From Muricauda sp. SCSIO 65647 (lineage in GTDB: Bacteria; Bacteroidota; Bacteroidia; Flavobacteriales; Flavobacteriaceae), in assembly GCF_021534965.1 (NCBI RefSeq), contig NZ_CP091037.1:3107501-3171500 (forward strand): a stretch of DNA of 64,000 nucleotides. The letters run 5' to 3'. The translations under genes and the position numbers were made by a program. Shown here piece by piece: positions 30,962 to 52,782 of this stretch (positions are counted from its first letter, which is position 1; every line of letters begins with the position of its first letter). A model generated the notes under the pieces. That model made no database searches. It had not been told where the DNA came from and saw nothing but the letters and a program-made list of their open reading frames with translations.

Positions 30962-30971
30962 GGGTTATGAT

Positions 30972-33900
30972 TCAAAAATTTAGAATTATGCCGAAAGATG
31001 TTGTCCTAGCGAGAGGATATAGGTCATTGTCCTGATTATTGTTGAACGAATCAACACCGGTTGCGGAAGTGGATTCTGGATCTAAGCCCGGATAACTGGT
31101 TATCGTAAATACATTGTTCATAGCCATAAACACCCTAACACTTTTTAGATGGGCCTTTTCTATAACAGAAGTAGGTAGGTTATAGGCCAATTGCCAGTTT
31201 TTAAAACGTATGAACGATGCATCATAATAAAGGCGGTCCGAATCCCTGAAATTACCCCCTGGATCTTGACTTCCCAATGCCGGGTACTGGGCATCCCTAT
31301 TGTTTGCTGACCATGTCTGATCAAAAACATCGGCAAATGTATTGGTGTTCACATTGGGCAAAATGTAGAACTGTGCCGCGTTCCATCGTTTATAGTTACC
31401 AAAGGAAAATTGAAAAAGAAACGAAAATTCAAAGCTCTTAAAACTCATTCTATTGTTCCATCCACCAAAGACATCAGGTTGTACATTGCCTATTATTTCG
31501 GTGTCATCAGCATTTATGACATTATCACCATTGATATCCTTAAACTTATAGTCACCGACCCCAGTGGTGGTATTCTGATAAAAACCGGTTGGGGATGCCG
31601 CATTCAGGGCATCCAATTCGGCCTGGTTCTGTATAAACCCTTCAACCTTATGTGCCCGTATACTGCCCAACGCTTCTCCTTCGATGACCCTTGAATTTGG
31701 ACCATTGATGGTGGGCGTGCCCTCGTTTAGCTTTTCAACCACATTCTTGTATCCTGAGATATTGAAATTGGTATTCCACTTAAAATCCCTATTATCGAAA
31801 AGGCGTCCACCAATTTCAACTTCCCATCCTTTGTTGCTTACTTCTCCTACATTGGCATATTGACGTGAAAAACCGAGTTCAGGCGATATGGGAGCGAACA
31901 ATAGTAAATCTTTTGTGTACTTGGTATAGTAGCCTAGCGTTCCATACAAACGATCGTTGAACAGGCCAAAATCGAGTCCGATATCGAACTGATCTGTGGT
32001 TTCCCATTTAATATTGGGATTGGGTACATTGGTAGGTTTTAGACCATTGTCATCAACGTAATTTGTCGTTGGGTCTGAAACGAAGAAAGGTTGATACAAG
32101 AACCCTGGAAGATTATCAAGACCAGTTCTTCCTGCACTAATACGTAGCTTGAGTTGATTGATCAACTGGGAATCCTTCAGGAAATTTTCGTTATGAATTT
32201 TCCAGGCCAAGGCGCCGGAGGGGAAAAAACCGCGTTGGTTGTTGGGCCCAAATTTAGATGACCCATCGGATCGTGCGGTCAGGGTCAACAAATATTTATC
32301 GGCAAAACTATAGTTCAATCTGCCAAAGAGAGAATTAAGACCATAATCGTCTTTGGTTTCGTTACCAGAACTAAAGGTACCACTGCCAATATTGGTAAGA
32401 TCATTGTCTGTAAATCCCACAAAGCGGGAATTAAAGGTTTCATTGATGATTCTGTTCCAAGAGATTCCGCCCAATACATTCAACGTATGATTTTCACCTA
32501 ATTTGGCATCATACGTCAAAGTGTTCTCAAAGGTGGTCGTCCTGTTGGAAAAACGACTCAGATCTTTGACTCCACCATTCAAAAAGAGTCCCTCGGTATT
32601 AAAGGTCTGTTTAAAGCTTTCGGTATTGTTCGAGAGATCGCTTATACTCAACGAGCTTTTGGCATGCAGGCCTTTGGCCAGTTTTAGATCAATGTAACCG
32701 TTTGCCAATAGGTTTCTTGAAAAAGCGGTAATGTCGGCCTGGTTATCGGCTACTGGATTGCCAATGGGAAACCCACCGCCCGTAACGCCACTGACGAAGT
32801 TTCCTGTTTCGTCACGTATCGGGATGTCAGGTCTAAATCCAATAACGTCGAACAACTGTATGCCTGCAAGGTCGTTCTCGCTATAATTGTAAGATAGTGT
32901 GGCTCCTATTTTAATGGTTCTGTTGAGCAAATCGTTGTCAATGGTACCACGAATACCGTATCGATCAAGGCCCGACCTTTTGATGATGCCATCTTGCCTT
33001 AGCAGCGAACCGGAAAGTGCATAATTCGAGGTTGTCGTTCCACCCGAAACCCCTACATTCAGGTTATGCATACCTGCATTGGTATTCAAGATTTCATCGA
33101 ACCAATCTGTATCGGCTTCCCCTATGGTTATACCGGTATTTGGGTCGATGGCCCTAACATATTGGGCATAGCCTTCAGTATCCAGAACCTCATAGGTATT
33201 GACCGGCGTTTGTAGGGCGTAATTATAATCTACGTTCAATTTAGCGTCTTGATTCTTCCGCCCTCGTTTAGTGGTAACGATTACCACACCGTTGGCGGCC
33301 CTTGCCCCGTAAATCGCTGCCGAAGAGGCATCCTTGAGGATATCTACACTTTCAATATCACGCGGGGGGATGGCCAGTAGGGGGTTTTCCCGTTCTACGC
33401 TCAGCGATCCGGCATCCCTTGGTGTAATAACTATGGGAACCCCATCAATGACATACAGTGGTTGGTTGTCTCCGTTGATGGAACTCAACCCTCTGATATT
33501 AATTGTTGCGCCAGCACCGGGAGCACCGGAATTCTGGGTGACAAAAACCCCAGAAAGCCTACCGGACAACATTTCGTCTACAGTAGGTGCACTCACGGCA
33601 TTGGCAACCAGCTCGCTCCCCTTTATGTTTGATATGCTTCCAGTGAGGTCTTTCTTTTTAACCGCTCCATAACCAACTATGACCACCTCGTTTAATTTAC
33701 TCAATGATTCCTTTAGTGTAATGGTGTACGTGGTCTGTTCGGTGCTTATTCTTTCTACATGGTTTTCATAACCGATGGCAGTGGCTATTAAGTAGTGGTT
33801 CAATTCTGCCTCTATTTCAAAACTACCATCAAAATCTGTAGCAGTGCCTCTTATTAAAAAGTCCTTGGAAGGCGCAGCATTTTTTGTTGGAGGGTATTTA

Positions 33901-34370
33901 CTGATGATAACTGTTATTCCTGGCAAGGGTTGACCGTCTTTATCAATAATCTTCCCTTGAATTTTAAATGTCTGTTGAGCGGGTTCGGATAATACTTGTT
34001 TCGATTTTCTTTTTACCACTATGGTATTATTGGAGGTGAAACGAAACTCGAATTCACCTTTCGAAAGGCTTTTTTGCAGTAAATCATCAGCCTCAATGAT
34101 ACCCTTCTTTAAGTGAACTTTCGGATAATTTTCAAAAGCATCAACCTGATAGATAAAAGTATAATCGGTCTGCTCCATGATAAGATCAAAGACTTCATCA
34201 ACGGTAAACTCTTTATCTGTATCTATTCTGATTTTGGCATTTTGAGATAGAACATGTTTTGGAACAATACTGAAAACCGCAGTACAACACAGAAAAATCA
34301 AGGTTTTCATAAAGATGGTTGGCAGTTTCTTTCCAAAATTGAAAAGAACAGGGTTTGACTTAATTTCCAT
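30972..34370 (-). CDS. SusC/RagA TonB-dependent transporter with STN signalling domain
   Basis: A 1,132-aa outer-membrane transporter. Order: N-terminal leader and signal peptide (to about 42, ending near HVLSQ), STN secretin-type domain (about 45-122), carboxypeptidase-regulatory-like domain (about 134-215), the SusC plug signature EVVIVGYGAVKKKDLTGSI, then the 22-strand barrel. The STN domain is what touches an inner-membrane FecR protein, so this transporter both imports and signals. Its regulator genes fecR and the ECF sigma gene lie immediately upstream. The N-terminus has about 20 extra residues before the hydrophobic core; MKTLIFLCC at residue 22 is an alternative start. Confidence 0.94.
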   Translation of the reverse strand: MEIKSNPVLFNFGKKLPTIFMKTLIFLCCTAVFSIVPKHVLSQNAKIRIDTDKEFTVDEVFDLIMEQTDYTFIYQVDAFENYPKVHLKKGIIEADDLLQKSLSKGEFEFRFTSNNTIVVKRKSKQVLSEPAQQTFKIQGKIIDKDGQPLPGITVIISKYPPTKNAAPSKDFLIRGTATDFDGSFEIEAELNHYLIATAIGYENHVERISTEQTTYTITLKESLSKLNEVVIVGYGAVKKKDLTGSISNIKGSELVANAVSAPTVDEMLSGRLSGVFVTQNSGAPGAGATINIRGLSSINGDNQPLYVIDGVPIVITPRDAGSLSVERENPLLAIPPRDIESVDILKDASSAAIYGARAANGVVIVTTKRGRKNQDAKLNVDYNYALQTPVNTYEVLDTEGYAQYVRAIDPNTGITIGEADTDWFDEILNTNAGMHNLNVGVSGGTTTSNYALSGSLLRQDGIIKRSGLDRYGIRGTIDNDLLNRTIKIGATLSYNYSENDLAGIQLFDVIGFRPDIPIRDETGNFVSGVTGGGFPIGNPVADNQADITAFSRNLLANGYIDLKLAKGLHAKSSLSISDLSNNTESFKQTFNTEGLFLNGGVKDLSRFSNRTTTFENTLTYDAKLGENHTLNVLGGISWNRIINETFNSRFVGFTDNDLTNIGSGTFSSGNETKDDYGLNSLFGRLNYSFADKYLLTLTARSDGSSKFGPNNQRGFFPSGALAWKIHNENFLKDSQLINQLKLRISAGRTGLDNLPGFLYQPFFVSDPTTNYVDDNGLKPTNVPNPNIKWETTDQFDIGLDFGLFNDRLYGTLGYYTKYTKDLLLFAPISPELGFSRQYANVGEVSNKGWEVEIGGRLFDNRDFKWNTNFNISGYKNVVEKLNEGTPTINGPNSRVIEGEALGSIRAHKVEGFIQNQAELDALNAASPTGFYQNTTTGVGDYKFKDINGDNVINADDTEIIGNVQPDVFGGWNNRMSFKSFEFSFLFQFSFGNYKRWNAAQFYILPNVNTNTFADVFDQTWSANNRDAQYPALGSQDPGGNFRDSDRLYYDASFIRFKNWQLAYNLPTSVIEKAHLKSVRVFMAMNNVFTITSYPGLDPESTSATGVDSFNNNQDNDLYPLARTTSFGIILNF

Positions 34371-34480: not shown

Positions 34481-35734
34481 TTATTTTATTAGAATTTTCT
34501 TGTCTTGTATCTCATAGTCTGTTATGAAATTTGTGGTTTTTATTAGCGATAGTATTTCTTCAATGTTTTGATTTTTCCGTAACACTCCCTTGAAAGCAAT
34601 CTTCTCCAGTTCTTTGTTCACGAAAACCACCTCTACATCATACCATCTAGACAACACTTTCATAATTTCTTTCAATGATTTATTCTTGAAATTAAAAAGC
34701 CCTCTTTTCCATGCTATTTCAGAATGAACATCGACCTCGGCGATTTGTATGTCGCGAGTTTCAACATTCAGAACAGACTGTTTTCCAGGATGTAAGATTT
34801 CTTTCTTAATAGTATTGTCAACGGTCACTTTTCCCTCTATCAGCGTAGTGTAGATATAATTTTCGTCTTCATAGGCCTTAATGTTGAATTCCGTACCCAA
34901 AACCTCGATTTCTTGCATGCCCGTATGTACCTTGAACACAGAGCCTTCGTGTTTGGAACTCGGTGAAACATCAAAGTAAGCCTCTCCATAGAGCAGTTCA
35001 ACATTTCGAGCTTGCCCATCAACAAAGCCGGTGGGGTACTTTAATCTTGATTCTGAATTGAGCCAAACTTGGGTGCCGTCCGATAGCTGAACAAAAAACT
35101 GCCCGCCCCTGGGCACGGTCAAAAAGTTGTACTCCATTTCTGAAACCGACTTTTCCCGTTCCTGTTTGGTGTACATCAATTTTTCATTTTCCACAGTTAC
35201 ATTTGAATCGGAATATGCAGCACCTTTTTTCAACTCAATATTCGAACCGTCCGCTAAAGTCAATATGGCTTTATCCGTGCCAATTTCAATGGTATTGGTT
35301 ATCGTACTGGGGGCGTCAATAGGGTCGTTATTATTGGTGGTAAGGAAAAAAGAAATGGAAATCAATGCCAAGATTGACGCTGCAATGGCATATTTGAAAA
35401 TAGCAGGAATTTTTTTGGTTTTCCGGTTATCGATTTCCTCCTTAATTTCTAGTAGTGGCCGTCTGTGATCAAATTTGGTTTTTGAATTTATTAAGTGGTT
35501 AATTTCGATAAACTCGTTAAAATAAGTGGCATTGTCTTCATTTTGAAGCCATTCCTTCAAAATATTGGCTTCCTTTTCAGAAATGCTGTTCTCAATAAGT
35601 TTGACTATTAGTCCGTCTATTTTGCTATTATCCACCTCGGGTAATTTTCCTCTATGACGCAAAAACTTTGAAAACCCCCTGAAATAATTTAGTTTTTTAT
35701 AAAATTTTAACAAAATTTGCGTTAAGTGAAGCAT
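34481..35734 (-). CDS. FecR-family anti-sigma factor
   Basis: A 417-aa (as drawn) inner-membrane regulator: cytoplasmic anti-sigma part, membrane segment at about 112-132 (IFKYAIAASILALIS), periplasmic FecR domain (GEAYFDV, IEVLGTEFNIKAY) and a C-terminal DUF4974/STN-like part that meets the SusC signalling domain. It holds the ECF sigma inactive until SusC binds ligand. The start is uncertain. The ATG at 35734 leaves an unusual basic 35-residue extension, while a GTG at 35635 (VDNSKIDGLIVKL) gives the N-terminus usual for the family. The divergent sigma gene needs upstream space, which favours the shorter form or the later sigma start. Confidence 0.88.
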   Translation of the reverse strand: MLHLTQILLKFYKKLNYFRGFSKFLRHRGKLPEVDNSKIDGLIVKLIENSISEKEANILKEWLQNEDNATYFNEFIEINHLINSKTKFDHRRPLLEIKEEIDNRKTKKIPAIFKYAIAASILALISISFFLTTNNNDPIDAPSTITNTIEIGTDKAILTLADGSNIELKKGAAYSDSNVTVENEKLMYTKQEREKSVSEMEYNFLTVPRGGQFFVQLSDGTQVWLNSESRLKYPTGFVDGQARNVELLYGEAYFDVSPSSKHEGSVFKVHTGMQEIEVLGTEFNIKAYEDENYIYTTLIEGKVTVDNTIKKEILHPGKQSVLNVETRDIQIAEVDVHSEIAWKRGLFNFKNKSLKEIMKVLSRWYDVEVVFVNKELEKIAFKGVLRKNQNIEEILSLIKTTNFITDYEIQDKKILIK

Positions 35735-35775
35735 TGGTCATTTTGATAAAGAAGCATAGGGAAAAGGATTTGAAT

Positions 35776-36312
35776 ATGGTATTGAAGGCCTTAAAAAAAG
35801 GGGATCAAAGGGTCTTTGAAACCATATATTGCGATTATTATGAAAGACTGTGTGTGTACTTGCTCAGTTACACTTCTGATAAGGAAAAAATCGAGGATAT
35901 TGTTCAGGATACATTTATGACCTTATGGTCAAAAAGAAATACGATTCATATTACTTCATCGATCAAGAGTTATTTGTACAGGACGGTTCACAATAAATTG
36001 ATGGATACCTTTAGGAGTTCTAAAAAGCATGACGAAATGTTGTCTTCCTATCTTCACACAGCACTGGTGCGCGCCATAAACCTTGATCAAGGAGAACAGA
36101 ATAGACGCCTAAAGAAATTGGACGAATGCATTGAACAACTGCCCACTAGATGTAAAACTGTTTTTATAGCGAAAAAGATAACCGGAAAAAAATATACCCA
36201 GATTGCCTCTGATCTAAAAATCTCCGAAAAAACAATCGAAGGGCATATTTCAAGAGCTTATAAGCTAATTAGAAGTTGTATGAGCGTTAACAAAGAGGCG
36301 GTTGTACGATAG
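35776..36312 (+). CDS. ECF RNA polymerase sigma factor (Bacteroidota FecI-like)
   Basis: A 178-aa sigma factor with region 2 (YERLCVYLLSY, IEDIVQDTFMTLW) and region 4 (LPTRCKTVFIAKKI, YTQIASDLKISEKTIEGHI). It is transcribed away from the fecR-susC-susD genes and probably drives them. The frame also extends back to a TTG at 35734, which would butt against the fecR ATG. The ATG at 35776 is chosen as the first standard start, although it leaves a short N-terminus (MVLKALKKGD). No T-rich strong terminator follows; a weak 5-bp hairpin with T6 is at 36396-36416. Confidence 0.88.
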   Translation: MVLKALKKGDQRVFETIYCDYYERLCVYLLSYTSDKEKIEDIVQDTFMTLWSKRNTIHITSSIKSYLYRTVHNKLMDTFRSSKKHDEMLSSYLHTALVRAINLDQGEQNRRLKKLDECIEQLPTRCKTVFIAKKITGKKYTQIASDLKISEKTIEGHISRAYKLIRSCMSVNKEAVVR

Positions 36313-36498: not shown

Positions 36499-37110
36499 TT
36501 ATTCTTTAAGAATGTACTGGTTTAGTTTTCTGTTTAACCCAAACAGAAGAAACAAAAGCATATCAGTTTTATCTCCTACTTTTTTGCGCAAAATTGAAAA
36601 AGCCCTTGTGATGTGACCTTCTACGGTTTTTATGGAAATCTTTAAGTATTCAGATATTTCAATATTGGTGAGGCCTTCCTGTCTGCTCAGTACAAAAACT
36701 TGTTTACATTTTGGAGGCAGGGCCTTAATTTCTTCTTTTACTATGCTCACTAGTTGTTCTATGGTTTCAGAATCCTTCTCTTCATTCGCCAATTGAAGGG
36801 CTTCTATGTACTTTTTTTCCAAAGCTAAAAGAGATTGGTTCTTTCTGTATTGGTCAATGAATTCATTGTACACAGAACTGGAAAGAAAACTTCTGATATT
36901 AAAATCATCAGGTAATCCTTTTCGCTTTCTCCAAAGCCCCAAAAAAACATTTTGTACAATATCCTGTGCCTGATGACTGTCATTGACCAAACTGTTTGCA
37001 AAAGTGCAAAGTCTTTGATGATGGGTATCTACCAAATATGTGTAAGCAGTCTCGTCCCCATTTTTAAGTCGTTCAATCAAAAAAATGTTATTGGAAAAAG
37101 TCTCTGCCAT
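36499..37110 (-). CDS. ECF RNA polymerase sigma factor
   Basis: A 203-aa sigma factor: region 2 with HHQRLCTFANSLVN and AQDIVQNVFLGLW, region 4 with LPPKCKQVFVLSRQ and TNIEISEYLKISIKTVEGHI. It is a FecI-like Bacteroidota type, distinct from the sigma at 35776 (similar plan, different sequence). It stands alone; the FecR-SusC-SusD set it most likely serves begins 7.8 kb away at 44897. A shared promoter-like sequence upstream of that set and upstream of the divergent transporter operon supports this link. The ATG at 37110 gives a standard N-terminus. Confidence 0.9.
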   Translation of the reverse strand: MAETFSNNIFLIERLKNGDETAYTYLVDTHHQRLCTFANSLVNDSHQAQDIVQNVFLGLWRKRKGLPDDFNIRSFLSSSVYNEFIDQYRKNQSLLALEKKYIEALQLANEEKDSETIEQLVSIVKEEIKALPPKCKQVFVLSRQEGLTNIEISEYLKISIKTVEGHITRAFSILRKKVGDKTDMLLFLLFGLNRKLNQYILKE

Positions 37111-37177
37111 TTTTATTGAATTGAGAATATAGAATGCAATAATATGTCAATAATAAAAAAATAATATTAAAAATCGG

Positions 37178-37200
37178 GGGAATCATAAATCAGCTTCGTC
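37178..37200 (+). promoter_or_regulatory. Putative ECF-sigma promoter, copy 1
   Basis: GGGAATC, 12 bases, then CGTC. The 23-nt stretch matches 44850-44872 at 21 positions, with only two A/G differences, and both are preceded by an AT-rich run. The GGAA-type upstream and CGTC-type downstream elements resemble ECF promoters in general. It points right, towards the permease gene at 37523 (322 bp away), and lies 67 bp behind the divergent sigma gene. Confidence 0.65.
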
Positions 37201-37321
37201 CTGTTTATAAATAAGAAACCTAAATAATTGCCGAAAAAAATTGGAAAATCTGATGATTGAATACATGGAAAAATAACTCAATCTGAATGAAATGGAAGAC
37301 GCACGGTAATAATAGGACAGG

Positions 37322-37523
37322 GTGTGGAATGGGGTACCTGTAGATGTATTGAAGCAGCATGGCATTTCGTATGATGGGGAATGGTTGGCCAAGAGCATTG
37401 ACCAAAGCATGCTTAGTACTATTGCCGAATGGGCTGATGAAAAGAACCAGCTTACAGGACATATTTGAACAAATCATTGGACAATTAGGTTTAAACCAAA
37501 AAACAGCTAAACACAATTTGTAG
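37322..37523 (+). pseudogene. Frameshifted tail of an unrecognised gene
   Basis: Frame 1 (37322-37468) reads with good coding character through HGISYDGEWLAKSIDQ and IAEWADEKNQ to a TGA. One base over, the frame continues as DIFEQIIGQLGLNQKTAK and stops at TAG 37521-37523. Joined by one frameshift these make a plausible 65-residue C-terminus, with an in-frame stop just upstream and no start. The family was not recognised. Its final TAG overlaps the GTG start of the permease. It is probably a relic left near the island edge. Confidence 0.45.
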
Positions 37524-38527
37524 TGTATATTATTGAAAATTATTACGTCGCTGTCTTTCTATGTGTAATTACTATGCTTTGTTGGGGGTCTTGGGCGAAC
37601 ACTCAGAAACTTTTAAGTCAAAAATGGCCCTTTCAACTTTTTTACTGGGATTATTCTTTCGGAATTCTAATCATTACACTACTGTTGGCATTTACAATGG
37701 GTTCCATTGGCGATGAGGGAAGAAGCTTTTTGATTGATCTTGGGCAAGCTGAAACAAAATACCTAGGTTATGCACTACTGGGCGGTATCATCTTCAACTT
37801 TGCCAATTTATTGCTTGTCATAGCTATTGACTTGACCGGTATGGCGGTTGCATTTCCAGTAGGTATCGGTATTGCTTTGGTTTTAGGGGTAATCACAAAT
37901 TTTATGTACAGCCCTGAAGGGAATCCGTTCATCTTATTTACCGGCGTATTATTCGTCGTGGGGGCTATAATTTTAGATGCATACGCATATAAAAAAACTC
38001 TTAAGGAACAGGGAAAGACCACTAGAAAGGGAATTCTAATCTCCCTTCTTGCAGGTATTGCCATGGGCTTTTTTTACAAATATGTAGCTCAATCGATGTC
38101 TTTTGATTTTGTGACTCCTGAAATTGGAAAATTAACGCCATATACCGCTTTGGTCATTTTTTCAATAGGTATTTTGATTTCCAATTTTCTATTCAATACC
38201 ATAAATATGTACAAGCCTATTACTGGTACACCGGTTAGTTATAGGGATTATTTGACCAAAGGGAATTTAAAACTGCATTTTATTGGTGTTTTGGGTGGTA
38301 TCATTTGGGGTTTGGGAATGTCTTTCAGTATAATCGCTTCCGAACAAGCGGGACCGGCCATAGCTTATGGCCTAGGTCAGGGGGCGACAATGGTAGCTGC
38401 CCTTTGGGGAGTTTTTATTTGGAAGGAACTTGAAGACCTGCCCAAATCCAAGAGTTGGTTGATTACGGCTATGTTTATTTGCTTTATTGTAGGTCTAGGT
38501 TTAATAATATATGCTAAAGTAGCCTAA
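37523..38527 (+). CDS. DMT-type sugar/nucleoside permease (GRP/ureide-permease-like)
   Basis: A 334-aa inner-membrane protein with about ten hydrophobic segments and an early TMLCWGSWANTQKL motif, a hallmark of the glucose/ribose-porter and ureide-permease branch of the drug/metabolite superfamily. A GVITNFMYSPEG loop and GLGQGATMVAALWGVF near the end also fit. It starts with GTG (no upstream ATG in frame). Ribokinase follows after 1 bp and a surface nucleoside hydrolase after that, so ribose or a nucleoside is the likely cargo. This is inferred from context; rhamnose/H+ symport is the main alternative. Confidence 0.82.
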   Translation: MYIIENYYVAVFLCVITMLCWGSWANTQKLLSQKWPFQLFYWDYSFGILIITLLLAFTMGSIGDEGRSFLIDLGQAETKYLGYALLGGIIFNFANLLLVIAIDLTGMAVAFPVGIGIALVLGVITNFMYSPEGNPFILFTGVLFVVGAIILDAYAYKKTLKEQGKTTRKGILISLLAGIAMGFFYKYVAQSMSFDFVTPEIGKLTPYTALVIFSIGILISNFLFNTINMYKPITGTPVSYRDYLTKGNLKLHFIGVLGGIIWGLGMSFSIIASEQAGPAIAYGLGQGATMVAALWGVFIWKELEDLPKSKSWLITAMFICFIVGLGLIIYAKVA

Positions 38528-38528
38528 T

Positions 38529-39455
38529 ATGAAATTAGTTGTAGTAGGAAGCTCAAATATGGACTTGGTGATTTCCGTGCCAAAGATTCCTGAAATTGGT
38601 GAAACCGTTTTGGGTGGAAAATCAAGTATGGTGTTTGGAGGCAAGGGAGCCAATCAAGCGGTGGCATCAATCCGTTCTGGAGGTGATGTGTCGTACATAG
38701 CCAAAGTGGGCGACGATCTTTTCGGTGAGAATATGAAAACCTACTTTAAAAATGAGGGTTTTCGAACGGAACTTATTTTGACCGATGCTAGCGAACCTAC
38801 AGGAATTGCCCAAATTTTTGTATCCGAAAAAGGTGAAAATTCAATTGCCGTGGCCTCTGGTGCCAACATGAAGCTTATGCCAAAGGATATAGAACCGTTT
38901 ACGCATCTTATTAAGAATTCAAAAGTGGTTCTACTGCAATTGGAAACTCCTCTGGAAACCGTCGGATATATCGCGAGTATTGCCTTTCAAAACAATGTAA
39001 AACTCATATTGAATCCAGCGCCAGCGCGAAGATTGAATAAAGACCTGTTAAAAAGGGTTTGGCTCATTACACCGAATGAGACGGAAGCAAGTATATTGAC
39101 CGGGATAAAGGTGGAAGATTTAATATCGGCAGAAAAAGCAGCCAAAGATCTCTTGAAGAAGGGTGTTTCGAACGTAATCGTCACTTTAGGAGAAAATGGC
39201 AGTCTTCTGTGCAACAAAAAAAGCATTTGTCATTTCCCCGCTTTTAAGACCAAATCCGTAGATACGACGGCGGCAGGAGATGTATTCAATGGTACATTGG
39301 CCGTAGGCATAACCAACGACAAATCGCTACCAGAGTCAATAAGTTTTGCAACTGCGGCCGCAGCACTTTCAGTTACTAAAGAAGGTGCACAACCTTCAAT
39401 TCCCACAAACGCTGAAATAGACAATTTTCTAAAAGAACGTGAATATTCAAAATAA
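38529..39455 (+). CDS. rbsK: Ribokinase (PfkB family)
   Basis: A 308-aa cytoplasmic sugar kinase that phosphorylates D-ribose to ribose 5-phosphate. It has the N-terminal substrate motif GSSNMDLV (7-14), the glycine-rich GGKGANQAVA (37-46) and the second PfkB signature DTTAAGDVFNG with the catalytic base Asp251. The phrase FGGKGANQA with TPNETEA is typical of ribokinases rather than fructo- or adenosine kinases. Its ATG lies 1 bp after the permease stop, so the two are translated together. Confidence 0.9.
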   Translation: MKLVVVGSSNMDLVISVPKIPEIGETVLGGKSSMVFGGKGANQAVASIRSGGDVSYIAKVGDDLFGENMKTYFKNEGFRTELILTDASEPTGIAQIFVSEKGENSIAVASGANMKLMPKDIEPFTHLIKNSKVVLLQLETPLETVGYIASIAFQNNVKLILNPAPARRLNKDLLKRVWLITPNETEASILTGIKVEDLISAEKAAKDLLKKGVSNVIVTLGENGSLLCNKKSICHFPAFKTKSVDTTAAGDVFNGTLAVGITNDKSLPESISFATAAAALSVTKEGAQPSIPTNAEIDNFLKEREYSK

Positions 39456-39481
39456 CGAACCTAAAGTAATACCCTAACAAT

Positions 39482-40483
39482 ATGAGAACATCAATGAGCT
39501 TTTTCCTTATTTCATATGTTTTAATCTCATGTGGTGCTGTTAGCAGTAGGGCCGGGGTTGAACACCAAACTCAAAAGCTGGCAGTTATTTTTGATACCGA
39601 TGCCAACAATGAGCTTGATGACCAACATGCCTTGGCCTATCTTTTTTCCAATCAGGAGTATTTCGACATCAAAGCCATTACGGTGAATGCGACACGTAAT
39701 GGTGGGGCCATTGACGGTCATTATGATGAAGCGGAACGCATCATGAAACTTTTCAATGTAGAACAAAAAATACCCTTGATAAAAGGGGCCAACAAATCCT
39801 TTTCTGAAATAAAGGACGACTTGAAAAAAGGATCCTTTGATGGATACAAGGCTGTAGATTTTATTATTTCCGAGGCGAAAAAACATACACGGGAGAAATT
39901 GGTGGTCTTAGCCGTTGGTAAGTTGACCAACGTTGCTTTGGCTTTAAAGAAAGACCCCTCAATAGTAAATAATATCCGTTTGGTATGGCTTGGTGCAAAC
40001 TATCCAGATTCAGGAGAATACAATCTGGACAATGATATTGAGTCAATGAACTATGTCCTGAATACTGATATACCGTTCGAGATGGTCACCGTTAGATACG
40101 GAAAACCTTCCGGCACAGATGCGGTTCGTGTTACCCAAGAAGAAATAAACACCAAAATGCCGGGACTTGGGCCAAAGGCAAAGACTCCCATTGTAGGTAG
40201 GCATGGGGATAGATTTGACAATTTTGGGGATTATTCCGTAAACCTGTTCACCCATATTGATTATCACAGTGACCCGCCTACCAGATCACTTTTTGATATG
40301 GCTGCGGTTGCCATTGTCAAGAATCCTGAATGGGCACGCGCTACCGAGATTCCATGTCCGGTCATGGTTGATAAAGTATGGATTGAACGACCGGAAAATT
40401 CCAGAAAGATTATAATCTGGGAGGATTTTGACAAAGAAAACATCATTAAGGATTTTTACAACGGGCTAAATAAATTCAATTGA
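39482..40483 (+). CDS. Surface lipoprotein nucleoside hydrolase
   Basis: A 333-aa protein of the inosine-uridine nucleoside hydrolase fold. The calcium-binding motif is DTDANNELDDQHA (Asp38, Asp40, Asp46, Asp47), an expanded version of the canonical DTDPGxDD. A type II signal peptide with lipobox ends at Cys17 (VLISC), so it acts in the periplasm or at the surface, freeing ribose and base from nucleosides. A later FDMAAVAIV takes the place of the usual HDP segment. It follows ribokinase by 26 bp. Together with the permease it forms a compact ribose-salvage set. Substrate range cannot be told. Confidence 0.82.
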   Translation: MRTSMSFFLISYVLISCGAVSSRAGVEHQTQKLAVIFDTDANNELDDQHALAYLFSNQEYFDIKAITVNATRNGGAIDGHYDEAERIMKLFNVEQKIPLIKGANKSFSEIKDDLKKGSFDGYKAVDFIISEAKKHTREKLVVLAVGKLTNVALALKKDPSIVNNIRLVWLGANYPDSGEYNLDNDIESMNYVLNTDIPFEMVTVRYGKPSGTDAVRVTQEEINTKMPGLGPKAKTPIVGRHGDRFDNFGDYSVNLFTHIDYHSDPPTRSLFDMAAVAIVKNPEWARATEIPCPVMVDKVWIERPENSRKIIIWEDFDKENIIKDFYNGLNKFN

Positions 40484-40655
40484 TAAAAACACTTTTGGGA
40501 GCGTGAAAAGAAGCTTCTCGTTAGGCCGGAGATTGACTTTAAACCTATTCCGCCTCGAAACCGACAAAAACGAAAAATCTTCCTTTCTAACCTCTACACT
40601 AAAGTCTTGAAAATTTATTGCAAATAAATACAATGGAAACAATCAAAATATTGAA

Positions 40656-41774
40656 ATGATGAACATGATGAAGAAAATGTCTAACTACTATTTTGCCCCG
40701 GTAATTTTTTTGTTGGCTCTAGCATGTAATACACCTCCTTCTTTTGAATGGGACTTTAAATCGTTTTATAAACCAAAAGAGAATCCTATTGTTCGAGCAG
40801 ATTCCTCCTTTACCTTTACTTGTCCCGTAAAAAAGGAGGTTGTACAGTGGCAAAAAGCGGATGTATTCAATCCGGCTGCCATAGTAAAGGACGATAAAGT
40901 ATACTTGCTTCTACGATGCGAAGACAATCCTAAAGCCCATCTTGGAGGCCGTACTTCCAGAATTGGTTTGGCCTACAGTGATGATGGAATACATTTCACA
41001 AAACATCCAACGCCGGTCCTTTATCCTGATGGTGGTGAATTTATGCAGTATGATTATCCAGGGGGTTGCGAAGACCCGAGGATAGTTGAGACGGACGATG
41101 GTTTGTATGTAATGACCTATACTTCATGGAATCATAAAATTGCAAGATTAAGTGTTGCATTTTCCAGAGACCTGATAAACTGGGAAAAAAAAGGACTCGC
41201 GTTTGCAAAAGCTTATGGTGGGAAATTTATAGATCATTGGTCAAAATCAGGCTCCATTGTCACAAAAATGGAAGGAGGCAAGCAAACTATTGCAAAAATA
41301 AATGGAAAATACTGGATGTACTGGGGTGAACATTTTGTCAATCTTGCATGGTCCGATAACCTGATTGACTGGACACCGCTATTGAATGAAGCCGAAGAAC
41401 TCAAGGTAATTCTCGGTGCCAGGAAAAATAAATTTGACAGCGCACTGGCAGAATGCGGACCGCCCGCATTGGTAAATGATGAAGGTATCGTACTATTCTA
41501 CAATGGTAAAAACTCTGATGATAACACACTTCGCGACAAAAATTTACCCGCAGGGACCTATTCGCTTGGAAAGGCAGTTTTTGATGTGAATACACCTGAA
41601 AAACTACTTTTTCGTTCTGATACCTGTTTGCTAAAACCAACATTGCCCCATGAAATTACGGGTCAATACAAATCGGGGACGGTATTCGCTGAAGGCCTCG
41701 TCCATTTTGGGTCGAAATGGTTTTTATATTATGGAACCGCAGATTCATTTGTTGGTGTGGCAATTTCTGAATGA
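40656..41774 (+). CDS. GH130-family beta-mannoside phosphorylase/mannosidase, lipoprotein
   Basis: A 372-aa five-bladed propeller enzyme. Family marks: FNPAAIVKDD, GRTSRIGLAYSDDG, the GCEDPRIV segment with likely catalytic Asp140, SKSGSIV and the end motif FLYYGTADSFVGVA. GH130 enzymes act on beta-mannosides, either by phosphorolysis (cytoplasmic forms) or hydrolysis. A lipobox (LLALAC, Cys24) puts this one outside the cytoplasm, which favours hydrolysis. Several Met codons open the frame; MKKMSN at 40668 is an alternative start. It precedes the nucleoside-hydrolase-like gene and may work with the GH92 enzyme at 56210. Confidence 0.8.
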   Translation: MMNMMKKMSNYYFAPVIFLLALACNTPPSFEWDFKSFYKPKENPIVRADSSFTFTCPVKKEVVQWQKADVFNPAAIVKDDKVYLLLRCEDNPKAHLGGRTSRIGLAYSDDGIHFTKHPTPVLYPDGGEFMQYDYPGGCEDPRIVETDDGLYVMTYTSWNHKIARLSVAFSRDLINWEKKGLAFAKAYGGKFIDHWSKSGSIVTKMEGGKQTIAKINGKYWMYWGEHFVNLAWSDNLIDWTPLLNEAEELKVILGARKNKFDSALAECGPPALVNDEGIVLFYNGKNSDDNTLRDKNLPAGTYSLGKAVFDVNTPEKLLFRSDTCLLKPTLPHEITGQYKSGTVFAEGLVHFGSKWFLYYGTADSFVGVAISE

Positions 41775-41907
41775 GTTCAATAAGCCAACTAACTATCTAC
41801 ATCCATTGGATGTTTACTAAATCGAATTAAATACTGAGATAATGCAATTAAAAACAAAACATATTATGAGAGACAGGTTCGCAAATCCATATACCATACA
41901 CGAAATC

Positions 41908-42882
41908 ATGAAGGGCTTTAAAGTACTGATGTTCATTCTCTGTTCCACTGGTGTTTTTGCACAAGAGGATGTTTATCATGGAACAAAAGAAACCATCCCC
42001 AAAATTCCGCCCAAAGATGAAAAAATACGGACCGTCATCGTAAGTGATGCCAAAAATGAGATTGACGATGTTTGGGCCATTGCACTAGCCATTCTCTCTC
42101 CCGAAAAATTTCAAATAGAGGGTTTTGTAGGAAGCAATTATGATCATGTTTTTGGCGTTGGCTCAAAAAGCATTAGTGGATCGGTAAGTGTTATCGAGAC
42201 CATTTTGGACAAAGCAGGCCTAAAGGGGAAATATCCCGTTTATAGGGGCTCACATCCCATGCAGTATCAGTTTGAGCCAAGCCATTCAGAGGGGGTGGAT
42301 TTTATCATTGAAAAGGCAATGGAGGGTTCTGGGGAAAATCCTCTATGGGTCATTGGCCTGGGCTCTGCCACTGATTTGGCATCAGCCTACCTCAAAGAAC
42401 CAAAAATTGCAGATCGGGTTATCTTTTTTTGGCATGGTCGTACAGAAAATACATGGCCTTATCGTGCGCACAATTACAATGTGAAAGGAGATATGCATGC
42501 GGCACGTATCTTGTTTCATTCCCCCGTTCCATTGGTGCTATTTGATACGGGAACGAATTTATCGGCAGGGACCATGGAAGAATCAAAAGAGCATGTCGAA
42601 CCCTTTGGAGAGCTTGGTAAATACCTTTATGAGTATCGTTTCAAAAGTGAATATTGGCAAGGCACCAAAAAAGGGTTTTTTGACCTTGGGGACATAGCGG
42701 TTTTGGTCGATCCTGAATTGGGCAAATGGGAAGAGACCATTTGCCCTACCGTAACCACATATATGGATTATAATTTCTATAAAACAAATGGCAAATTTCT
42801 GCGCTGCAGAAAGGTACAACGTGACGGAACTTTTCAAATGTTGTACAGCAAGTTAAGGGAACATCAGGCAGCAAGGGAATAA
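41908..42882 (+). CDS. Secreted nucleoside-hydrolase-like protein with altered metal motif
   Basis: From the ATG at 41908 the protein is 324 aa, with a signal peptide MKGFKVLMFILCSTGVFA; the longer frame from 41842 would bury this peptide behind 22 residues. The fold motif reads VSDAKNEIDDVWAIALA: the first Asp of the canonical DxD is replaced by Val, while Asp47, Asp53 and Asp54 remain. FDLGDIAVLVDP near the end matches the C-terminal metal-site region. It is related to the lipoprotein at 39482, but activity on nucleosides is doubtful and another N- or O-glycoside may be the target. Confidence 0.65.
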   Translation: MKGFKVLMFILCSTGVFAQEDVYHGTKETIPKIPPKDEKIRTVIVSDAKNEIDDVWAIALAILSPEKFQIEGFVGSNYDHVFGVGSKSISGSVSVIETILDKAGLKGKYPVYRGSHPMQYQFEPSHSEGVDFIIEKAMEGSGENPLWVIGLGSATDLASAYLKEPKIADRVIFFWHGRTENTWPYRAHNYNVKGDMHAARILFHSPVPLVLFDTGTNLSAGTMEESKEHVEPFGELGKYLYEYRFKSEYWQGTKKGFFDLGDIAVLVDPELGKWEETICPTVTTYMDYNFYKTNGKFLRCRKVQRDGTFQMLYSKLREHQAARE

Positions 42883-43047
42883 TCGAATCGAATTGGAAAT
42901 CAGTCGGGTATTTGATATTTAAACAGTACGGGAGAAGTCATTGAATTTTCCAGTTTGACCGGAACTGATATGATTGAAATTCCACTTTTAGCGGTTCAAA
43001 ACTACCGGCAATTTGGTATTTTAATTGAGAACCCTTAAGTCACTCCT

Positions 43048-44625
43048 ATGAAGAATTTACTGCTACCTGTTTTACTTGTCCTATTTGCCCAAGCGTTGCC
43101 CATAAATGCCCAAATGAGGATACTGAATTTTCAGGGCGACAACGGTTATGAGCATGATTCAAAAGATGAGGCAAATTTCCTGATCGAGTCCCTTGGCACC
43201 AAAAATGGTTGGGAGGTGGTTTCTACCCATGATCGCAGCGATTTAAATGCAAAGATGCTTTCTACTATGGATGTTGTCGTCTTCAATAATAATTGTGGTA
43301 CTGAAGGGGCCATTTTCTCACGATCGCAACAAAGGGCACTACAAAATTTTATAAGACAGGGAGGAGGCTTTGTCGGAGTACATTGCGCTGGCGCAATTTG
43401 GAATGAGGAGGTCGAATTTCAAAAATGGTATGAACAACTTATCGGCACGCGTCTGGTAGGACATCCAGAGGTTCAAAAGGCTACTTTGACCATCGAAAAT
43501 AAAGACCATATCGGTACAAAGCACCTTCCTAATAAATGGCAGGTAAAGGATGAGTGGCACTACTTCTCAAGTAACCCAAGGGGAAGCGTCAATGTTCTGA
43601 TATCCTTGGAAGAGGATTCCTATCACGCAGAAGCCAACTTAAAAATGGGAGGAGACCATCCCTTTACTTGGTATCAATACTTTGACGGTGGACGTTCATT
43701 TTTTACCTCCTTGGGGCATACGGAGGAAATTTATTCAGACAGTAATTTTCAAAAGCTTATCGAAGGGGGAATCGTATGGGCATCTGGAAACGACTCCAAG
43801 GAAAATTTTAGTGCCCATGGGCTAATTTTGGACTTGGATGCCGACTCATTGGTGATTACGAACAAAAAACAAGAAGTATTACGGTGGACCAATAAAATAT
43901 CCACCTTTCCCGCAAAACATTTTGAGCCCAATGATTATGGTGTAAGACTAACAAAACCAGGCTCTGGAAGGCCTAGGATCAAGAAAAACGTCCCTCAGAT
44001 AAATAATCACAATGTCGTTGTTTTCAGGGAAGATGAATTAATCAATAAAAAAGAAGATGCCTTCGATTACCTGATCAAAGGAAGTGGATATACATGGTTT
44101 GCGGTACTAAGGCCCTACAATACCCAAAACAGCAATATAAAGACCGAGTTTGGACAAGGCCGATTAAAGGATGTCAATTCTTTCTTGGGCAATTTAAAAA
44201 ATGGGGGCAATTATGAAGGTATATGGGGAAGCTTGGAAGATAATCTTACGATTTGGTGTGGTTCAAGAAACGGGATCTCTTTTGGTCGTTTTGACAACAA
44301 CAACCCCAAAGTTCGTGGCATTAGGCTAAATCCCGATAGCTATTATATTGTCGCTGCGAGGATGGGCGCCGGAGTGGATACCGTAGACATCGAGCTATTT
44401 GTCAATGAAGCAGAAGCCATTGCCCAAAAGCCAATTCCAATAAATAGCTATTCCAATTCTTCCAAATTGGCCATTGGAACGGAACGGGATGCCACCAATC
44501 ATCCCGGTGCTGAATCCTTTGATGGTGAAATTGCCCGTTTGTTGATTTATGAGAGACCCTTAAATGATGCAGAATTAAGAAGGACCATAAGCTATTTGTC
44601 GGCTACTTATGATATCAAAGAATAA
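43048..44625 (+). CDS. Secreted ThuA-domain protein with C-terminal LamG-like domain
   Basis: A 525-aa protein with a signal peptide ending near INAQ. Residues 23-245 show a ThuA (trehalose-utilisation, glutamine-amidotransferase-like) fold: NGYEHDSKDEANFL, VVVFNNNCGTEG, FVGVHCAG and SLGHTEE. The rest (about 255-525) is a concanavalin/LamG-type lectin domain ending ARLLIYERPLNDAELR. ThuA domains are frequent in sugar-utilisation loci, but their reaction is not settled. It is the last gene of the run starting at 37523. No terminator was seen before 44850. Confidence 0.82.
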   Translation: MKNLLLPVLLVLFAQALPINAQMRILNFQGDNGYEHDSKDEANFLIESLGTKNGWEVVSTHDRSDLNAKMLSTMDVVVFNNNCGTEGAIFSRSQQRALQNFIRQGGGFVGVHCAGAIWNEEVEFQKWYEQLIGTRLVGHPEVQKATLTIENKDHIGTKHLPNKWQVKDEWHYFSSNPRGSVNVLISLEEDSYHAEANLKMGGDHPFTWYQYFDGGRSFFTSLGHTEEIYSDSNFQKLIEGGIVWASGNDSKENFSAHGLILDLDADSLVITNKKQEVLRWTNKISTFPAKHFEPNDYGVRLTKPGSGRPRIKKNVPQINNHNVVVFREDELINKKEDAFDYLIKGSGYTWFAVLRPYNTQNSNIKTEFGQGRLKDVNSFLGNLKNGGNYEGIWGSLEDNLTIWCGSRNGISFGRFDNNNPKVRGIRLNPDSYYIVAARMGAGVDTVDIELFVNEAEAIAQKPIPINSYSNSSKLAIGTERDATNHPGAESFDGEIARLLIYERPLNDAELRRTISYLSATYDIKE

Positions 44626-44849
44626 GTGCTTGAACGGCCCAATTCATTGATAGGTTTTTCCTTTATGATGTGCCCCTTTTTATTGGTCTAGTATGAGAAT
44701 CAACCCTTGGAGAGATTAAAGGTGACCAACCTTTATTTGAAGATTAATTCTAAAAACAAAAAAATGAGAAAACACTTCATTTTTTGTTAAAAAAAGAAAT
44801 TTGACCCCAGTATTATGCAATTATTAAAAAAATATTACATAAACAAAGA

Positions 44850-44872
44850 GGGAATCGTAAATCGGCTTCGTC
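44850..44872 (+). promoter_or_regulatory. Putative ECF-sigma promoter, copy 2 (fecR-susCD operon)
   Basis: GGGAATC, 12 bases, CGTC; identical to 37178-37200 at 21 of 23 positions. It ends 24 bp before the fecR ATG at 44897, a normal promoter-to-start distance. It would drive fecR-susC-susD-FAD oxidoreductase-cstA up to the terminator at 54296. The adjacent gap 44626-44849 shows no gene. Confidence 0.7.
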
Positions 44873-44896
44873 TTAAGTATATACTAGATTCAGAAA

Positions 44897-46048
44897 ATGT
44901 CTACTCAGAAATTTCAAAAACTGATTGTGAAATACCTCACGAGACAGGCCAGAGCAAAAGAAATGGCACGCTTGCTCGAATGGTTGAACAATCCCCAAAA
45001 CCATTTGTTGTTCAATGAATTTGTAAAGGTTCAATTTGCTATAGATTATGCTATGAAAAAGTACGATGTAGAAAAAACCAAAAAAGAACTATTAAAGGAA
45101 ATCAAGAGGGACAAGAATATATTTCACAGGCGACCTACAAGGTCATTTTTGAAATATGCGGCCATTGCCTTGATTTTTCTTGGCTTGGGATACTTCTTTA
45201 GAAACGATTTGTTTCATGAAGAGGACCATGAACTTCTTGTGCCTGAGGAGCAGTCCATTACATTGGAACTGGAAAATGGTAGTATCCAAATTATTAACCC
45301 CTCAGATACAAAAGAAGTCCGTGATCCCAACGGTAACTTAATAGGAAACCAGAACAGGAATACGATTGTTTATGACACAAATTCTGAAATTGATGAACTG
45401 GCATACAATACCTTGAAAGTACCTTATGCCAAAAGGTTTGACCTGCAACTGTCTGATGGCACGATAGTCAGTCTCAATGCAGGGTCATCATTAAGATATC
45501 CGGTAAAGTTTTTAAGAAACGGTAATAGGCAGGTGTTTTTGACAGGAGAGGCCTATTTTGAGGTAGAAGAAGATGCAGAGCGCCCCTTTATCGTAAATGC
45601 TTCCACTCTTAATGTGGAGGTGCTGGGCACGGAATTTAATATAACCGCATACCCTGAAGATAATGCTTCTGATGTCGTACTTGTTGAAGGATCGGTCGCG
45701 ATGCATTCGGGTACGGTCAATTCCGATAACCCGATCGAGTTAGTTCCAGGAGATAAAGGTTCAATGGATAAAATATCGGCAAATATCATGGTAGAAAAGG
45801 TAAATACCAATATCTATACCTCATGGAGAGATGGGGAATTGGTCTTTCGTAAAATGCCTTTGGACAACATTTTGAAAAAACTTGAACGGCATTATAATCT
45901 CACCATAGTCAATCAAAACACGGCTTTGGGTAAAGAGGTATTCAACGCAAGTTTTAAAAATCAACCGATAGAAAAAGTACTGGGCTATCTCAATACCCTT
46001 TATGGCATTGAGTATCAGATAAAAGAAAACATAATTATAATAAACTAA
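44897..46048 (+). CDS. FecR-family anti-sigma factor
   Basis: A 383-aa inner-membrane regulator: cytoplasmic anti-sigma region (1-80), membrane segment about 84-101 (FLKYAAIALIFLGLGYF), periplasmic FecR domain with GEAYFEVEEDAERPF and VEVLGTEFNITAY, and a C-terminal DUF4974/STN-like part (MPLDNILKKLERHYNL). It links the STN-bearing SusC downstream to an ECF sigma factor, most likely the one at 36499-37110. The start is fixed by the promoter-like site 24 bp upstream and a normal N-terminus. Confidence 0.92.
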   Translation: MSTQKFQKLIVKYLTRQARAKEMARLLEWLNNPQNHLLFNEFVKVQFAIDYAMKKYDVEKTKKELLKEIKRDKNIFHRRPTRSFLKYAAIALIFLGLGYFFRNDLFHEEDHELLVPEEQSITLELENGSIQIINPSDTKEVRDPNGNLIGNQNRNTIVYDTNSEIDELAYNTLKVPYAKRFDLQLSDGTIVSLNAGSSLRYPVKFLRNGNRQVFLTGEAYFEVEEDAERPFIVNASTLNVEVLGTEFNITAYPEDNASDVVLVEGSVAMHSGTVNSDNPIELVPGDKGSMDKISANIMVEKVNTNIYTSWRDGELVFRKMPLDNILKKLERHYNLTIVNQNTALGKEVFNASFKNQPIEKVLGYLNTLYGIEYQIKENIIIIN

Positions 46049-46086
46049 ACGATTTGCCTATGATTAAAAGGAACTATTGAGCAAAA

Positions 46087-46112
46087 CCGGGAAATGTTGG
46101 CGCATTTCCCGG
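46087..46112 (+). promoter_or_regulatory. Strong hairpin between fecR and susC
   Basis: CCGGGAAATG (46087-46096) pairs perfectly with CATTTCCCGG (46103-46112) around loop TTGGCG. No T-run follows, so full termination is unlikely. A partial terminator, RNase stop or mRNA-stability element that raises susC above fecR expression is the natural reading. Confidence 0.6.
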
Positions 46113-46165
46113 AATATAAAGCGATTAATTAGACTAAAATAACCACTTTCTAAGTATATAAAAAT

Positions 46166-49100
46166 ATGAAAAAACAACGGAACACGGGGTCGTGGTGTCC
46201 ACCACTGCCAAAATTCGACCTAAAAATGAAATTGACCGCTCTGTTAGTATTAACTGCTTTATTCGGACTACAGGCCAATAACAGCTATTCACAGAAAACC
46301 AAAATCTCGTTGGATGTTAAAAATATGTCGGTTGCCTCAGTTATCGATGAAATTGAAAGCACCACAGATTATCGATTTGTTTATATCACCAAATACGTTG
46401 ATATAGACCGCAAAGTATCCCTAAAAGTAAGACGTGAACGAATCAAAAAAGTACTGGGCATTTTATTTGACATGACAGATACGGACTATACAGTAGAGGA
46501 TACCCAAATCCTTCTTACATATAAGGACAAAAGCGAAGAAATTACGACAGAAAAAAAAGAGACAACTATCTTAGGGGCACAACAAGCCGAGATTTCTGGA
46601 AAAGTGACGGACAAAGATGGCGTTCCACTACCAGGAGCCAGTATAGTTGAAAAGGGCACCTCTAATGGTACACAAACTGATTTTGATGGAAACTTTTCGT
46701 TGGAATTGGTTGGGGAAGACCCTGTTCTAGTTATTTCCTATATAGGTTTTGCCGCAAAGGAGGTTCAAGTGAACGGACAAAACACCATTAACGTTACTTT
46801 GCTTGCAGATACCGCTAATTTAGACGAAGTAGTGGTCATAGGATATGGTACCGTCAAAAAGAGCGATCTAACTGGAGCTGTTGCTTCGGTTTCCCAAAAA
46901 GAGATTCAAGATGTACCCGTAGCATCCATAGATCAGTCAATACAAGGTAGGGCCGCGGGGGTGACCGTTACGCAGACATCCGGTGCTCCAGGAGCGGGAA
47001 TAAGTATCCGAATCAGGGGTGGAAACTCGATAAGCGGTGGCAATGAACCATTGTACGTCATAGACGGTATTCCTGTTTACAGTAACAACAACCTATTTCA
47101 ACCAGGTGATGGATCGTTCAATGTAGGTGAAGGGCAAAATGCATTGGCCACACTCAATCCAGGTGATATCGAGTCCATTGAAATCCTAAAAGATGCCTCT
47201 GCAACGGCAATTTATGGATCTAGGGGATCCAATGGTGTGGTCATCATCACCACAAAAAAAGGCGAAGCAGGTAAACCGAAATTTAGCTTCAATACCTATA
47301 CTGGTTTTCAAGAAGTGTCCAGAACATTGGATTTGTTGGTGGGCTCAGAACATTTGGCATTTAAAAATGAGCAATTGGTAAATCTTGGAATACCTGTTAG
47401 ATATGGTGTGCCAGATGGAAGATTTCCAATGCCGTTGGATGAATATGGAGCTACCGATTGGCAAGATGAAATTTTTAGAACGGCAGTAATAACCAACCAT
47501 CAACTTTCGGTTTCTGGAGGAAGCGAGAATTCAAAATATTTCATCAGCGGAAGTTACTTTGACCAAGAGGGTACAATCATCAATTCTGGGTTCAAAAGAT
47601 ATAGTCTCAGAATAAATATGGATAATAAGCTCTCAGATAGAATGACGCTTACCAACAGCCTGTCTTTAAGTAGAAGCCAAAATAACCCTACGATAGATGC
47701 AGGAGGAGAGGGAGTGCTCACAAATGCCTTGCGTTTTACACCTGCTCTACCTGTTTTTGACGAAGACGGCAATTATTCGATTAATGTTGGTCCAGGATCT
47801 GGACTTTCACAAATGGTCAATCCGGTGCAACTGGCCAGGGAAACCATCAATGAGATTGAAACCGACCGGGTTTTGGCCAATTTTGCTTTGGACTATGAAT
47901 TGGTGAATAACCTAAAACTAAGAGTAAGTGTTGGAGGTGATATTGTGAGTAGCCAGCGCCGACTCTTCTTCCCGAACAATTTTGAATATGCAACTTTAGC
48001 GGTCAATGAAAACGGGTCTGCTGTCTCATCCTTTACGCGTTCCACAAATCTGTTGAACGAAAATACCCTTAGCTACAAGTATGAGATCAACCCTGATAAT
48101 GTATTTGATTTTCTTGCCGGTATAACGTTCCAGTCGCAAGAAATAGAGATTTCTACCGCACAGACCAATGATTTTGTCACCAATGTGAACGGACCCGACA
48201 ATCTTTCCGTTGGTGCCTCGCCCCAACCCACAATTACCCAAAGGGAAAAATGGGGTTTAAATTCATATTTGGCACGTGTCAACTATAACCATAAAAACAA
48301 GTATTTGCTAACATTGAGCGGAAGGCTTGACGGTTCATCCCGCTTTGGCGAAAACAATAAATATGGTTTCTTTCCATCTGCTGCTTTCGCTTGGAGAGTT
48401 TCAGAAGAAAGTTTCTTCGGCGAAAGCGAAACCTTTAGCAGTTTAAAGTTCAGGGCAAGCTACGGTATTACGGGTAACCAAGAAATAGGACTTTATCAGT
48501 CATTGGCGCGACTAGGAACGTTGCGCACGGTATTTGATAATGGTGCGAACACCCCTATAGGGGTTTTCCCCCAAAATGTTGCCAATCCCGACTTAAGATG
48601 GGAAAAAACGGCACAATTCAATGTAGGGCTGGATATGAGTTTTTTCAAAAATAGAGTTCAGCTTTCAGCCGATTATTATAATAAGAAGACCGAAGATTTA
48701 TTAGTAGCAATCGAACTTCCGGCAACATCTGGAGCAAGCAGTGCCCTAAGCAATATTGGAAGTCTTAGGAACGAAGGTCTGGAGTTTACTTTGAATACTA
48801 GGATATTGGATGGTGAATTTAGTTGGCAAGCCAGTGGCAACCTTGCCTGGAATCGAAACGAAGTTTTGGATATTGGAGTTAACGATGATATCATTTTGAG
48901 TGCCGACGGCATAGGTAGTAGCAATATAATTACCAGAGGGGAATCTGTAGCTTCTTTCTATGGATTGGTTTGGGATGGCGTTTGGCAAGACCAAGCTGAG
49001 ATAGATGCATCGGGTATAGCCCCCAATGCAAACCCAGGTGATTGGAAATTCAAGGATGTAAATGGTGACGGGGTCTTCAATGAAGCTGATGACCGTACAA

Positions 49101-49612: not shown

Positions 49613-49628
49613 CTTAAATAGTAAAATC

Positions 49629-51029: not shown

Positions 51030-51139
51030 GGTTCGGAGAGATTGTGTTCCCTTCAAGATCACGCCCATTTAGGGTTTCGTGTGCATTGGGCCAATGTAAC
51101 CTTTTTAACGAATTATTTACTTGCTAAAACGTTTCATCT

Positions 51140-52768: not shown

Positions 52769-52782
52769 AGAATAGCGTTTCA

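Follow-up and report, generated by a model that had tools for sequence, protein, structure and literature searches.

In Muricauda sp. SCSIO 65647, two nearly identical 23-nt elements lie within a 64,000-nucleotide stretch of contig NZ_CP091037.1 (positions 3,107,501 to 3,171,500 of the forward strand), hereafter called the window. Site A (GGGAATCATAAATCAGCTTCGTC, 37178-37200, + strand) precedes a run of genes for a permease, a PfkB-family kinase, a nucleoside hydrolase-like protein (NH), a GH130 protein, a second NH and a ThuA-domain protein. Site B (GGGAATCGTAAATCGGCTTCGTC, 44850-44872, + strand) precedes fecR-susC-susD. Sites A and B are likely duplicates of a single promoter of the extracytoplasmic function (ECF) type, read by the sigma factor encoded at 36499-37110. 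These copies would have arisen by duplication of a sigma-fecR region with reciprocal loss, and one sensor would serve both gene runs. The sequence supports a promoter-like motif that goes with this sigma factor and precedes fecR-susC-susD. Taken separately, the site before fecR is very probably a promoter, and the other site is probably one too.

The two sites are identical at 21 of 23 bases, each follows an A/T-rich run, and both point rightward, exactly as the original prediction had described them. The A-tract regions occupy 37157-37177 upstream of site A and 44828-44849 upstream of site B (both on the + strand), and tracts similar to the former occur in most homologous gaps. Between site A and the start of the sigma gene there are 67 bp, and site B ends 24 bp before the start of fecR. 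As the prediction had proposed, we searched the own genome, a single contig of 3,811,654 bases, for the motif. It turned out that GGGAATC-N12-CGTC without mismatches occurs only at A and B (control 0), and the 23-nt motif with up to three mismatches again matches only there (reversed control 0). Within the window, the motif search with one mismatch gave four matches when 0.81 were expected, a number reached by one of 100 shuffles. The genome-wide uniqueness and the absence of control matches rule out a chance resemblance of the two sites.

The sigma gene (36499-37110, - strand) encodes a protein with regions 2 and 4 only (PF04542 and PF08281, both above the cut-offs). The FecR-type anti-sigma factor (44897-46048, +; PF04773 and PF16344, above the cut-offs) is followed on the same strand by a SusC-type TonB-dependent receptor (46166-49612; PF07660, PF07715), a SusD-type lipoprotein (49596-51029; PF07980, PF14322) and a FAD-dependent oxidoreductase (51140-52768; PF12831), which is the next operon gene both here and in Ulvibacterium. 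The signalling STN domain that had been predicted for this SusC is indeed found at its N-terminus (residues 78-120, E 8.5e-9, above the cut-off). Adjacency of sigma and fecR genes is the usual trait of sigma/FecR/TonB-receptor signalling systems, although not a strict requirement. It is lacking here, and the fecR at 44897 stands, as had been noticed, without an adjacent sigma gene, about 7.8 kb from the gene at 36499-37110.

We searched 299 Flavobacteriaceae genomes with the motif, allowing two mismatches. Matches were found in three of them: the own genome (both sites), an Ulvibacterium genome (G217) and G168. The match in G168 is antisense inside an open reading frame (ORF) of 694 codons and was taken as chance. 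In Ulvibacterium, a single copy lies between divergent orthologues of the sigma gene and fecR, whose proteins are 85% and 80% identical to those of the window. This copy stands 68 bp away from where the sigma gene starts, and 24 bp separate it from the start of fecR. Since the distances in the window are 67 bp at A and 24 bp at B, A appears to have retained the old arrangement on the side of the sigma gene, and B that on the side of fecR. The order after the Ulvibacterium motif is fecR-susC-susD-oxidoreductase-NH-GH130-NH-sulfatase, with proteins about 78-90% identical to those of the window, where the sulfatase orthologue lies at 58641. Thus, the Ulvibacterium operon combines genes from both window runs. 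DNA homology between the two loci falls into three parts: the sigma gene with its upstream gap (36524-37209), NH-GH130-NH (39463-42401, the end being that of the first Ulvibacterium DNA piece) and 44775-52787.

Traces of a duplication are found at both sites. Downstream of site A, a probable remnant of the fecR 5' end with in-frame stops (37227-37320, +) shares 48 of 94 bases with the fecR at site B. It is followed by the 3' end of a truncated gene (37322-37465, +), judged by eye to be gluconate-dehydrogenase-subunit-3-like. Full-length homologues of this gene have about 240 codons; the piece has no Pfam match, finds matches in 76 of the 299 family genomes and has a further own-genome copy at 2325414. 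Upstream of site B, the homology stops at the ATG AAG of a former sigma gene (44775-44780, -), possibly the start remnant of a lost sigma copy, a weak trace of two codons only. The motif is alike at 21 of 23 bases in A and B, as against 61 of 120 in the spacer and fecR remnant (Fisher p 0.0002). Thus, both copies retained the motif as the flank decayed. An independent origin of the two sites is disfavoured, as the homology continues through the gap. Most likely, A and B are copies of one ancestral sigma-fecR gap promoter, and the simplest history that we infer is duplication of the region followed by reciprocal loss. The separation of sigma and fecR in the window is derived.

The motif, its conservation, the gene order and the domains are direct observations, from which we infer the history, recognition by the sigma factor at 36499-37110, the signalling and the activity of A as follows. 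The ancestor, like Ulvibacterium today, would have had a single fecR-susC-susD-oxidoreductase-NH-GH130-NH operon, with the promoter in the gap that separates the divergent sigma gene from fecR. After duplication of the sigma-fecR region, each copy would have lost a different part. The sigma-side copy (A), having lost fecR, would now precede permease-PfkB-NH-GH130-NH-ThuA, and the fecR-side copy (B), having lost sigma, would drive fecR-susC-susD-oxidoreductase. A substrate at SusC/SusD would be signalled to FecR through the STN domain of SusC, FecR would release or activate the sigma factor, and the latter would transcribe both runs. Probably, one nutrient sensor still switches on both parts of the split operon. 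The complete circuit of STN domain, FecR, sigma factor and two promoters, as originally proposed, thus probably holds for fecR-susCD; where the other run is concerned, the balance tips in its favour. The original interpretation had not included the second sigma/FecR pair described below, the probable origin of the twin sites by duplication or the derived state of the sigma-fecR separation.

To place the element within the family, we searched 397 genomes with the sigma protein. Homologues at E up to 1e-27 were present in 97 of them, and the DNA was read at 29 loci outside the own genome, each the best match in its genome, from more than 100 sigma matches. In 28 of the 29 loci fecR diverges from the sigma gene, and all 28 sigma-fecR gaps carry an element AGGG/GTGG, 16-17 nt and CGT/TGT directed to fecR. 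The exact GGG-N16-CGT is present in 23 gaps and variants in five: GTGG in L044 and L049 (the former also with TGT), TGT in L053, and one additional base in L057 and L060. None of the 29 loci (260 nt each) carries the exact form in the opposite orientation; these regions leave out the L055 site, which lies farther away and was counted from another region set. In most gaps two A-tracts lie upstream of the element, L057 being without them. At L054, where no fecR lies within 1.5 kb, the element was absent in both forms. The L054 sigma homologue is 57% identical, and the adjoining ORF is glycerol-kinase-like by eye. A consensus applied to the 29 whole genomes gave 22 matches in 19 genomes versus two in the control. 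By coordinates, 21 of the 22 adjoin the start of an ECF sigma gene, and the remaining one is antisense in an ORF. At this stringency most sigma genes have one site, and the twin sites of the window would therefore be unusual. The own genome also has a divergent sigma-fecR pair at G000:C1:1116947-1118600 (L029, L064) with an A-tract and an AGGGG box, but with CAT instead of CGT.

The CGT box resembles a -10 box. A conserved -35-like box precedes it at a fixed distance, and the polarity is the same throughout. The -35-like box is GGGAATC in the window and AGGG(T/A) in most other loci. A classical ECF promoter has a GGAAC-type -35 box followed after about 16 nt by the -10 box. In the sigma alignment, L044 and L049, the two loci with GTGG, have in common the unusual residues KNTIERHIN in the recognition helix. 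The window and Ulvibacterium sigma factors, which go with GGGAAT instead of the AGGGT of most loci, both have an arginine at a position where lysine prevails in the others. This pairing is consistent with the box being read directly, but it may also reflect two inherited events. Conservation alone cannot separate a promoter from an operator, so the element might instead bind a DNA-binding regulator. Nothing specific speaks for this. We find it very improbable in view of the two conserved boxes with fixed spacing, the polarity towards fecR, the CGT near the expected start and the tie of the element to the joint presence of sigma and fecR. As far as the loci were read, no other DNA-binding gene is common to them.

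The sigma gene at 36499-37110 had been called lone. An ECF sigma gene is present there, as the Pfam domains confirm, but it is not the only one nearby: a second one, also assigned by Pfam (35776-36312, +; ORF 35734-36312, probable ATG at 35776), is convergent with it and divergent from a second fecR. The latter (ORF 34481-35734, -) probably starts with the GTG at 35635 and is followed on the same strand by susC and susD (29534-34370); in this SusC, no STN domain was found at E values up to 0.001. Before this fecR lies a similar element, site C (35654-35679, -), probably read by the second sigma factor. Homologues of the second sigma gene face fecR in all 15 other loci returned. By eye, many of these loci have AGGGTTTT...CGTC-like elements, and site C fits that kind; a relaxed pattern was found in 10 of 15 in the forward direction and 1 of 15 in reverse, the exact form in 4 and 1. 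A and B might alternatively be read by the second sigma factor or by both. The close position of its gene, the same build of its presumed site C and the CGTC-like elements of its relatives speak for this. However, the two window sigma factors are only 29% identical, the spacer of site C differs, and we assign A and B to the first sigma factor because its orthologue flanks the motif in Ulvibacterium. Reading by the second sigma factor or by both thus seems quite improbable.

Several results weigh against the proposed scheme. The orthologous motif was found in just one of the 298 other genomes, that of Ulvibacterium, and a search for related loci gave a single locus. No close sigma orthologue was found in three other genomes of the own genus, and no close FecR orthologue in two other genomes of the Ulvibacterium genus, where the best match, at 53%, spans part of the protein. 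The remnants of the duplication are short, and the spacing between the -35-like and -10-like boxes is about 3-4 nt shorter than the classical value. The matrix score of site A is modest: in a first-order simulation of one strand, about 40 chance matches per Mb reached it, as against 1 at the score of site B. The core matrix rested on 27 loci, all from genomes other than the own one and that of Ulvibacterium, and three of its rows were misplaced (L044, L057, L060). Over 127,950 window positions it ranked B first, site C second and A fourth. In model R1 (25 rows), L032, L057 and L060 were omitted and the places of L044 and L049 corrected. Within the window, R1 ranked A first (E 0.0007) and B third (E 0.016), the second place going to a half-match; a match at 38736 was set aside, as it has the first half alone without CGT. 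On the scale of the genome R1 is weak: it gave 18 matches, among which A was second (E 0.049), a divergent sigma-fecR gap of the own genome with CAT for CGT third (E 0.13), and B only thirteenth (E 2.1). The first was presumably false: at 2912079, antisense in an ORF, it was taken as chance. The matrix alone proves little, and the case is carried by position, orthology and near-uniqueness.

The remaining counterevidence concerns the run behind site A. It consists of a ureide/sugar permease (37523-38527; PF07168, PF06800), the PfkB-family sugar kinase (38529-39455; PF00294), the first NH (39482-40483; PF01156), the GH130 phosphorylase-like protein (40656-41774; PF04041), the second NH (41842-42882; PF01156) and the ThuA-domain protein (43048-44625; PF06283), all on the + strand between the sigma gene and fecR. 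Both NH genes and the GH130 gene are members of the fecR operon in Ulvibacterium. The original placement of the two sites holds closely for B before fecR; at A, the permease ORF starts 322 bp past the site, with gene remnants between. Upstream DNA could be evaluated at 27 of 28 other permease loci, and the score of site A was reached by none of these runs (best 7.7 versus 9.5). The expected conservation of the motif upstream of orthologous operons is thus found for fecR and not for the permease. Because none of the relatives' runs reaches this score, the permease pair was probably not an old target, and permease and kinase are probably newcomers to the circuit. Several relatives' runs start with another gene, and the true promoter may therefore lie further up.

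It could be that only B works, that A survives as a relic of the ancestral sigma-fecR gap, and that another promoter serves the permease run. This would agree with the absence of the element before the relatives' permease runs, with the distance from A to the first ORF and with its lower score in the core matrix than that of B. Against this, A has kept its motif at 21 of 23 bases while the downstream flank decayed to about 50%, and NH-GH130-NH are old members of the operon of this sigma factor. In addition, an exact TAnnTTTG box is absent from 37200-37560, and the + strand of 37200-37523 shows no terminator-like site, so that transcription from A into the run is possible; scans for promoters and terminators of the E. 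coli type did not rise above chance. We consider it unlikely that B alone is active. Control of the permease-NH-GH130-NH run by the sigma factor is the better reading, because NH-GH130-NH sit in the fecR operon of Ulvibacterium.

Control of SusCD loci by ECF sigma and anti-sigma factors is already known (PMC3878776, PMC10766802). Like FecI-FecR-FecA signalling and its Bacteroidetes SusC/SusD form, the window has an ECF sigma factor, a FecR-type anti-sigma factor, a TonB-dependent receptor with an STN domain and a nutrient locus (PMC3878776, PMC10766802). In contrast to FecI-FecR-FecA, sigma and fecR are split by a gene run, and the promoter stands twice, before two runs. In Flavobacterium psychrophilum, of the same bacterial family, mapped promoters with CGT at -10 are attributed to ECF sigma factors (PMC9723704). 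There, motif SM6 has mapped starts and can be compared with the window by its CGT box alone; it precedes type IX secretion and other genes rather than SusCD loci (PMC9723704). The SigW-1/PUL59 system of Bacteroides thetaiotaomicron resembles the window in that an ECF sigma factor governs utilization-locus genes beyond its own sigma/anti-sigma unit (PMC12596196). It differs in that the locus is distant, that TGTT lies near -10 (a motif not significant there) and that no promoter duplication is mentioned in the sections consulted (PMC12596196). A comparative study calls the prediction of ECF promoters challenging and dependent on mapped transcript starts (PMC3878776). Our literature search, which covered titles and abstracts and did not extend to the main 2021 ECF classification, found the promoter element stated nowhere. 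The 2021 classification reportedly holds group motifs. The type of circuit is thus already known; as far as we searched, what is new is a family-wide element as a testable prediction and an operon split into parts that each have a promoter.

Bacteroidetes have many ECF sigma factors in nutrient loci. There is perhaps an even chance that, across the Flavobacteriaceae, the ECF sigma factors of SusCD loci follow a common, readable promoter code, with one element (usually A-tracts, AGGG, 16-17 nt and CGT) per divergent sigma-fecR gap and about one site per sigma factor. A second target would then be gained by duplication of the gap, with reciprocal loss splitting the operon and new genes, such as the permease and kinase, entering behind the spare copy. 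The -35 box would co-vary with the recognition helix, so that the target of a sigma factor could be predicted from sequence alone. As the element is present in all 28 gaps and, by the consensus, nearly absent elsewhere in the 29 genomes, the regulons would become predictable and directly testable. The window offers an example of the way in which a single sensor may gain a second operon.

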